A DNA stretch of 47,972 nucleotides from Prochlorococcus sp. AG-315-C08 (GTDB lineage Bacteria; Cyanobacteriota; Cyanobacteriia; PCC-6307; Cyanobiaceae): the NCBI GenBank assembly GCA_003284185.1, contig QBWB01000004.1, positions 1-47,972 on the forward strand. Direction: 5' to 3'. Of the stretch, positions 18,660-20,843 are shown piece after piece; the stretch's first letter is position 1; every line of letters begins with the position of its first letter. Both the position numbers and the translations under genes were made by a program. A model generated the notes under the pieces. It did no database searches and was not told the DNA's origin. It saw only the letters and a list, made by a program, of their open reading frames with translations.

Positions 18660-18702
18660 GCAAAATGATACAGTGTAGGTACCGGTGTAGGTACCATTTT
18701 GC
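18660..18702. repeat. Inverted repeat enclosing two direct repeats at the sulfite reductase start
   Basis: GCAAAATGATAC (18660-18671) and GTACCATTTTGC (18691-18702) are inverted copies matching at 11 of 12 positions, separated by 19 bp. Inside and overlapping the right arm are two perfect 11-bp direct copies of GTGTAGGTACC (18673-18683 and 18685-18695). The TTG start codon of the reductase lies in the right arm. This could be a protein-binding site or an mRNA hairpin hiding the start; which of these is unknown. Confidence 0.75.
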
Positions 18703-20843
18703 CTAAAATCATAACGATACCAGGAAGATCAGGTTTTTACATCAGGGTTGCGGTACCAAGAGGGACATTAAGAGATGCTTTGGGTACATGTGATGTAGTA
18801 AAAAAAATTGGTAATACAAAAAAAGAAGCTGAACAAAACATAAATTCGGCAGAAATCGCAATAAAACAAAAATTCGACGAGAAGCTACGAGAAGAAGAAG
18901 TAAAAAAAATCAATAGCTCTTTACCTAGGGGAATCAAGGTTGAAGCAATTGATAATCACAATTCAAAAGAATCCCCAAAAAACATAGAAAAAGATTTAAA
19001 AAATGCTGGATTTAGTAATGCAGCTATCGAAGCACTACTAAATTTCGAAAATAAAGAAAACTCAATTGAAGGAGAAATCGAAGAAAAAGTCCCTTCTCCT
19101 TGCATAGCAATTAACGCTCCTCGAACTAAATTTGAACAATTTAAAGCCGATAGTAATTATTTAAATGAGCCCCTACAAAGTGAATTATTAAATGAAGGTG
19201 ATCATTTTACAAATGACGCTGTTCAACTTCTGAAATTTCATGGTAGCTACCAACAAGATGATAGAGAACATAGAAAAAAAGGTGGAAAAGGTAAAGATTG
19301 GCAAATGATGTTGAGACTTAGAAATCCAGCTGGGTTTGTCCCGGGGCCACTGTTTATTTCATTAGATGATCTCTCTGACCAACTTGGAAATCAAACTCTT
19401 AGGGCAACAACTCGTCAATGCTTCCAAATGCATGGAATAAAAAAAGAGAATATTAAGGAAGTAATAGGAACAATCGTAAGATCAATGGGATCAACTCTTG
19501 CAGCATGTGGAGACGTTAATAGAAATGTAATGGCTCCAGCAGCACCTTACCAAAAAGGAGCTTATCCTGCGGCAAGAAAGTTAGCACTTGACATTGCAGA
19601 TGTTTTATCCCCGAAAGAAGCGGAAAGAACATATCTAGATTTGTGGGTTGATGGCGAAATCAAATATGCAATCAAACCCTCTTCTGAAGTCAAAAAATAT
19701 AGAACAAAACAATTAAATCGAGGAGTATTCAGTGGAGATAAGAAAGAACCTTTATATGGTTCGACATATTTACCAAGAAAATTCAAATGCGCAACTACTG
19801 TCCCAGGAGATAATTCGGTCGACATTCTTACTCATGATATAGGCTTAATGACGTTCACGAATAAGAAAGGAGACTTAGAAGGTTGCAATGTCTATGTCGG
19901 AGGAGGCATGGGTAGAACACATAACTTAGATACTACATTTGCAAGAATAGCAGACCCTATTGGTTTTGTAGAAGGCAAGGATATATTAGAACTGGTTCAA
20001 TCTATCCTCGCTCTTCAAAGAGATTATGGAGATAGGAAAACAAGAAGACATTCCAGGCTTAAATATGTTTTACATGATATGGGTGTTAATTGGTTCAAGA
20101 AACAATTGACAACAAACTATTTTACTAGAAAGATATATAAGTTAAGGCATGAAGTGAAGACAAAACTTGAAGATTATTTAGGTTGGCACAAACAATCTGA
20201 AAGGCTATGGTTTGTTGGCTTACCACTTTTATCAGGTAGGATTAAAGGAGAAGTAAAGAAGGGACTCAGAAATATTGTTGAGAAATATGCATTAGATGTG
20301 CGTTTAACTCCCAACCAAGACTTATTATTATGCAATATAGGAAATTATCAAAAGAATAGTGTAAAGAATGATCTAATTAAAATAGGTTTTATAGATCCAG
20401 GAAACCCGCATCCACTTTTTAGACATGCAATAGCTTGTCCAGCTCTTCCATTATGTGGACTTGCAATGACAGAAGCAGAGCGATTTTTACCAGAACTTTT
20501 AGACCGAATAAACAATCAATTAAAAAGTCTCGGAATCAATAAATCAATTTTAACAAGAGTGACAGGCTGTCCAAATGGCTGTGCGCGTCCATATATGGCA
20601 GAATTAGCTCTTGTTGGTAGTGGTTTAAATCAATACCAACTATGGCTAGGTGGGAGCCGCGATTTAAAAAGGTTAGCAACTCCATACCTACAAAAAATGC
20701 CAATCAATGAGTTAGAAACAACCTTAAAACCTTTATTCCTTAGCTGGAAAAATAATGGAAAGTCAATAAGTCTAGGAGATTATGTAACTAAACTTGGCAA
20801 TGAGAATGTACTTTCCTTGCTGACTTCAAATGCAGCCCCATAA
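18699..20843 (+). CDS. sir: Ferredoxin-sulfite reductase with an integrase-like N-terminal extension
   Basis: Reduces sulfite to sulfide with six electrons from ferredoxin in assimilatory sulfate reduction. The reductase runs from about residue 143 (TKFEQFKADSNYL) to the end: LLKFHGSYQQDDR, TLRATTRQCFQMHGI, IGTIVRSMGSTLAACGDVNRNV, and siroheme/4Fe-4S cysteines 580, 586, 624 and 628 in CPALPLC and CPNGC. The full protein is 714 residues, clearly longer than usual. Residues about 10-68 (GRSGFYIRVAVPRGTLRDALG, then helices) resemble the DUF6538 N-terminal region of tyrosine recombinases; 70-142 is a charged linker. The start is a TTG at 18699. No ATG, GTG or TTG lies between codons 28 and 203, so the extension cannot be a mis-chosen start. 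The domain identity is pattern recognition; the reductase part is certain. The 3' end overlaps the VanX-like gene by 64 bp. Confidence 0.93.
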   Translation: MPKIITIPGRSGFYIRVAVPRGTLRDALGTCDVVKKIGNTKKEAEQNINSAEIAIKQKFDEKLREEEVKKINSSLPRGIKVEAIDNHNSKESPKNIEKDLKNAGFSNAAIEALLNFENKENSIEGEIEEKVPSPCIAINAPRTKFEQFKADSNYLNEPLQSELLNEGDHFTNDAVQLLKFHGSYQQDDREHRKKGGKGKDWQMMLRLRNPAGFVPGPLFISLDDLSDQLGNQTLRATTRQCFQMHGIKKENIKEVIGTIVRSMGSTLAACGDVNRNVMAPAAPYQKGAYPAARKLALDIADVLSPKEAERTYLDLWVDGEIKYAIKPSSEVKKYRTKQLNRGVFSGDKKEPLYGSTYLPRKFKCATTVPGDNSVDILTHDIGLMTFTNKKGDLEGCNVYVGGGMGRTHNLDTTFARIADPIGFVEGKDILELVQSILALQRDYGDRKTRRHSRLKYVLHDMGVNWFKKQLTTNYFTRKIYKLRHEVKTKLEDYLGWHKQSERLWFVGLPLLSGRIKGEVKKGLRNIVEKYALDVRLTPNQDLLLCNIGNYQKNSVKNDLIKIGFIDPGNPHPLFRHAIACPALPLCGLAMTEAERFLPELLDRINNQLKSLGINKSILTRVTGCPNGCARPYMAELALVGSGLNQYQLWLGGSRDLKRLATPYLQKMPINELETTLKPLFLSWKNNGKSISLGDYVTKLGNENVLSLLTSNAAP

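Follow-up and report, generated by a model that had tools for sequence, protein, structure and literature searches.

A tyrosine-recombinase-like N-terminal domain and paired upstream repeats at the sulfite reductase gene of Prochlorococcus, probably captured together from a mobile element

The ferredoxin-sulfite reductase gene (sir) of Prochlorococcus sp. AG-315-C08 encodes a sulfide-forming enzyme whose first 65 residues share ancestry, by sequence comparison, with the DUF6538-like domain found at the N-terminus of tyrosine recombinases from picocyanobacteria, and directly ahead of its start codon lie two tandem TGTAGGTACC repeats that the initial annotation of this DNA had missed. We consider it probable that sir has captured the 5' module of an integrase gene, that is its arm sites together with its arm-binding domain, and that sulfite reductase (SiR) now binds the promoter of its own gene, keeping its synthesis in check. 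The window referred to below is the whole stretch of DNA that was analysed, 47,972 nucleotides in length, and all features of sir are on its forward strand.

The sir ORF runs from 18699 to 20843 (714 codons, 714 aa, TTG start), with a TGA stop in frame upstream at 18666-18668. Models of the SiR family begin at residues 139-146, leaving about 140 extra residues at the N-terminus, which bears out the initial annotation's figure of ~142 residues ahead of the normal start, and residues 10-68 read as they had been given there. The catalytic core, residues 139-714 (19113..20840), matches Pfam NIR_SIR, scores well above the cut-off of NF010029 (739.5 bits, cut-off 457) and just below that of TIGR02042 (722.8 bits, cut-off 731.5); the four cluster cysteines are intact in the translation in a CX5C ... 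CX3C arrangement (CPALPLC, CPNGC), and downstream of the extension the protein has SiR domains only, with no SAM-like or catalytic recombinase domain. No start codon other than the TTG at 18699..18701 (GTG in one locus, L069) is shared by all of the 23 fused loci that were examined, and in the window ATG, GTG and TTG are absent between residue 28 and residue 203, the latter being inside the core. Several relatives have 1-2 extra bases between the upstream repeats and the TTG and the frame of the repeats varies among loci; this variable spacing means that the repeats are non-coding and that translation begins at the TTG, and the reading frame itself indicates that the extension is translated.

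When the genomes of the family were searched, the extension matched the sir fusions and the N-termini of proteins of 430-466 aa with Phage_integrase and SAM-like domains. In sister genera the tyrosine recombinases give matches to it with E values of 3.5e-11 to 1e-10 per genome, and the nearest in protein, the integrase of G101, is 52% identical across 62 residues (BLASTP, E 3e-13). A profile built from the sir extensions alone was compared with one built from the integrases alone, and the two aligned over residues 1-65 with a probability of 99.7% and an E value of 4.9e-26 (hhalign); judged by these alignments the resemblance of the extension to integrases is not one of chance. Several of the integrase relatives match DUF6538 (PF20172), the best with an E value of 2.8e-6, at up to 24 bits against a Pfam gathering cut-off of 27, and it is through homology to these proteins that the DUF6538-type domain proposed for SiR in the initial annotation is supported. 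In a single-sequence Pfam scan, of the kind that had been proposed there, the sir extension alone matched neither DUF6538 nor any other model, and single-sequence scans against Pfam, PHROG and NCBIfam gave chance-level matches only. A PHROG tail-fibre match to residues 31-129 (E 5e-4) was discounted, being helical and of low complexity, and weak matches to ORFs of 449-472 aa in G067, G167 and G191 were attributed to chance, these being other proteins that are RadA-like in G067 and G167. The profile of the domain had no match among PDB sequences, and no relative of the extension was found in the viral contigs and phage records searched.

An arm-binding fold comprises a three-stranded sheet and a C-terminal helix; for residues 1-65 (18699..18893), the putative arm-binding domain, AlphaFold2 (mean pLDDT 89) predicts the order beta-beta-helix-beta-long helix, that is beta-beta-helix-beta-alpha. 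The structural comparison with integrase arm domains that had been put forward gave no significant solved homologue, Foldseek finding no significant match for models of 143 and 74 residues in the PDB and viral libraries, and the tree of arm domains was unresolved. Of the extension that had been read as an integrase domain it is about residues 1-65 that stand as such, the remainder being a fast-evolving linker and a conserved helical pair. The end of the long helix and the variable linker occupy residues 66-92 (18894..18974), whilst residues 93-119 (18975..19055; KNIEKDLKNAGFSNAAIEALLNFE) are predicted to form two helices, are weakly similar to LEQRLKSVGL and LEQRLKKAGF of the integrases of G101 and G169, and are perhaps the integrase inter-domain region.

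The survey of sir N-termini that had been suggested has been carried out and the fusion is present in all 30 same-genus genomes that have an assembled sir 5' end (the 11 genomes of the genus with no match lack this end in their assemblies), together with one sister genus, AG-404-P15, which is also fused at 52% identity. AG-402-O21 and AG-402-L09, two of the records with the fusion, appear in a published list as LLI Prochlorococcus (PMC6370341). The sir genes examined in other picocyanobacteria are without exception unfused and, where the locus covers it, are found in the same neighbourhood of chlP, glyS, sir, a vanX-like gene and recG (the names of neighbours being read from translations), with an upstream region that differs from that of the fused clade. 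In a tree of the SiR core, rebuilt without two very long outgroup branches that had disturbed the first tree, all the fused genes fall on a single branch with support of 100/98; given this single branch, and unfused orthologues in the same neighbourhood, a resident gene gained the extension once. The unfused sir genes at L080, L081, L083 and L084 have a conserved motif, CACTTTATTGAA ... TTAGCTACGGT, ~80 nt before the core, which is missing in the fused clade and is possibly the ancestral sir promoter.

The domain has been kept under purifying selection, with dN/dS among 22 loci of the genus being 0.057 for residues 2-65 and 0.075 for the catalytic core, and hence the constraint on it is no weaker than that on the enzyme to which it is attached. 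The corresponding values are 0.156 for residues 66-95, 0.083 for residues 96-118 and 0.37 for residues 119-138.

The TGTAGGTACC repeats are found at 18674..18683 and, 12 bp further on, at 18686..18695, and it is with them that the feature truly begins, upstream of position 18699 from which it had initially been annotated. They are arm-type-like sites, the proposed operator, within a candidate promoter/operator block of 33 bp, AATGATACAGTGTAGGTACCGGTGTAGGTACCA (18664..18696), whose mean pairwise difference across the 22 genus loci is 0.019; for the upstream 60 nt the figure is 0.274, and for the gene's fourfold sites 0.396. The two units themselves differ by 0.9% pairwise, against 40% at fourfold sites. 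In AG-404-P15 TGTTGGTACC occurs twice in the same place, again with a period of 12 bp. No genus genome that was scanned has the 12-bp pair of TGTAGGTACC anywhere but at sir, and the genomes G056, G161 and G173 (1.9-2.0 Mb) each contain just two copies of the unit, both at sir. A putative extended -10 element (TGA-TACAGT) can be read from the sequence at 18669..18674 (18666-18674 with the TGA), is conserved in nearly all loci of the genus and would place the sir promoter here; a two-hexamer promoter scan did not find it. A terminator-like match over the repeats was rejected as its T-run is missing in most orthologous loci.

The main rival explanation at the protein level is that the fusion gave sir a promoter and a start codon, with the domain being kept only by its position before the enzyme. 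The window contains no alternative start near the core, so the extension cannot be skipped, and residues 119-138 are nearly unconstrained, both of which would be expected of a passive scar. However, the domain is more constrained than the core, and the repeats are conserved base for base while the adjoining linker drifts, and we regard this explanation as unlikely; the same dN/dS of 0.057 disfavours the suggestion, made when the fusion was first annotated, that the extension is the functionless scar of a fused element.

The combination of an N-terminal domain of this type with repeats before the start codon is shared with the integrase relatives. In 12 of 20 integrase and Rieske upstream regions the start is preceded by a direct repeat (9-10/10) whose period is 12-13 bp and which at most 5 of 300 shuffles reach, and the remaining 8 have no significant repeat. 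The sequence of the repeat varies between systems, TGGTAGGACC, TGTGGGTACC, GTTGGAACCA and TGGTCCTGCA being examples, and the G101 integrase, which is the nearest in protein, has a repeat near-identical to that of sir, TGTAGGTACA. After thinning of clusters, domain similarity and repeat similarity correlate weakly (rho 0.30, p 0.12), and a Mantel test of the two is significant only with redundant members. Upstream of int TGTCAGTCA occurs three times in L018 and GGTACTAGCAA twice in L022, with L021 having repeats of differing sequence, which suggests that repeat and domain diversify together.

The complete genome G086 has a mobile element of ~7.3 kb at the 6S RNA gene (L152, G086:C1:121000-133000) which encodes an integrase of 422 aa, and the ends of which are formed by a 67-nt direct repeat in the 6S RNA gene with copies 7271 bp apart. 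Arm-type repeats (TGGTAGGACC and variants, with a 13-bp period) are present at both ends; the unit TGGTAGGACC occurs just five times genome-wide, as a pair at the start of int and as a pair and a single copy ~7 kb away at the element's other end. A decayed element, also at the 6S RNA gene, was found in G021 (L153, G021:C2:85000-93500); what is left of its integrase amounts to ~106-111 codons, and one copy of the repeat lies close to either end. An arrangement with repeats at both ends, within the attachment cores, is that of arm-type sites, and the integrase N-terminal domain is therefore most likely the arm-binding domain, with the sir repeats most likely being former arm sites of that domain; at sir the arm-type repeats are found at the gene only and no element is present. 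The donor was probably an element of this 6S-RNA-targeting kind.

The integrase repeats also bear on the strongest rival at the level of the nucleic acid, in which control would be exerted on RNA and be translational: either the palindromic GGTACC pair would form a hairpin that covers the ribosome-binding region, or the domain would bind the 5' leader RNA. The GGTACC cores are invariant and GGTACC-N6-GGTACC folds at -10.7 to -13.8 kcal/mol, yet this fold is unexceptional in the window (z -1.3). Furthermore, the integrase repeats keep the direct-repeat period whilst being mostly non-palindromic (TGGTAGGACC, TGGTCCTGCA), and further copies lie at the opposite end of the element, where a leader hairpin would serve no purpose. 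It would seem quite improbable that the repeats act in this manner.

A second enzyme has the same domain: in G247 and G276, two other Prochlorococcus genomes that belong to a different genus, it is found ahead of a Rieske/ring-hydroxylating oxygenase. The G247 fusion (L058:1501-2823, plus strand; Rieske E 1e-12) has perfect GGTTCTACCA repeats with a 12-bp period before its start, which none of 300 shuffles reached; that of G276 (L101, minus strand) is 66% identical to the G247 protein, and the repeats before its Rieske start are degenerate and not significant. No unfused homologue of the Rieske fusion was found among 400 genomes of the family. The two cases suggest that capture of an integrase domain by enzymes has happened at least twice, and one might go further and see integrase 5' modules, with their promoter, arm-type repeats and arm-binding domain, as portable self-regulating cassettes that have been captured repeatedly by metabolic enzymes (SiR, Rieske), each enzyme becoming a repressor of its own gene, a generalisation for and against which we see equal grounds.

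For sir the proposal of capture and autoregulation would run as follows. In an ancestor shared by the low-light-I Prochlorococcus clade and the AG-404-P15 lineage, a fragment of a tyrosine recombinase gene, comprising arm-type repeats and the coding region of the arm-binding domain, would have been fused in frame to the resident sir, and the old sir promoter would have been replaced by the captured fragment. The SiR domain would still recognise the two tandem repeats, which span the proposed transcription start and ribosome-binding region and overlap the putative extended -10 and the leader, and SiR sitting on its own promoter would damp its own synthesis. The binding of DNA by DUF6538 and by SiR, the repression, and any coupling to the state of the enzyme's cofactor or substrate are steps that we infer. 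Autoregulation is favoured amongst the functions originally offered for the extension because cognate-looking repeats are found at the sir promoter and the scanned genomes have no second 12-bp pair of them. There is a precedent in the integrase IntS of KplE1, which represses its own promoter where this overlaps its arm sites, and autoregulation of this type has been proposed as common among integrase genes (PMC2951348).

Another of the functions originally offered, nucleoid association, in which the extension would give SiR general DNA binding and compaction, finds no support and is very unlikely, as the restriction of the 12-bp pair to sir points to specific rather than global binding. Plant SiR, to our knowledge, has no integrase-type domain, and compacts DNA without one. 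The idea draws on plant plastids, in which SiR binds and compacts plastid DNA (PMC4154389). It is equally hard to credit that SiR, by means of its putative arm-binding domain, contests the arm sites of incoming integrases. Related integrases and elements do occur within the genus (G086), but the repeat of the one element of the genus that has been characterised is TGGTAGGACC and not TGTAGGTACC, and an element with the sir-type repeat was not found in the genus.

If capture and autoregulation is the true explanation, then a housekeeping enzyme in a streamlined genome has gained feedback control in one step, by acquiring from a mobile element both the DNA-binding domain of a recombinase and the sites to which that domain binds, and the Rieske case suggests that this route may be general. 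It leads to a clear prediction, that SiR binds the 33-bp block before its own gene, and provides a function to test for DUF6538.

In comparison with known systems, residues 1-65 align over their full length with the N-termini of the DUF6538-matching recombinases, the pattern G-R-x-G-[FY]-Y ... P ... LR ... K-x-G-N-T-x-x-E-A is common to both, and the start codon has the same position relative to the upstream repeats. Unlike them, the sir extension alone falls below Pfam reporting and its domain is attached to a metabolic enzyme, without SAM-like or catalytic recombinase domains. The plastid SiR, DCP68, is likewise a ferredoxin-SiR with a proposed role at DNA, but it compacts plastid DNA broadly (PMC4154389), whereas sir has a specific candidate site. 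As with intS of KplE1 (PMC2951348), the sir repeats lie just before the start codon and over the proposed promoter, and the product starts with an integrase N-terminal domain. In the case of sir, however, that product is a sulfite reductase, and an attachment core, a recombination module and a catalytic integrase are all missing. The term trigger enzymes is used for enzymes with control over their own genes, examples being PutA, NadR and BirA, and SiR would resemble them as a metabolic enzyme with a putative sequence-specific DNA-binding domain and proposed control of its own gene. We know of no trigger enzyme with a domain and operator from a mobile-element recombinase; SiR would stand apart in having obtained its domain, and apparently the operator with it, from such a source.
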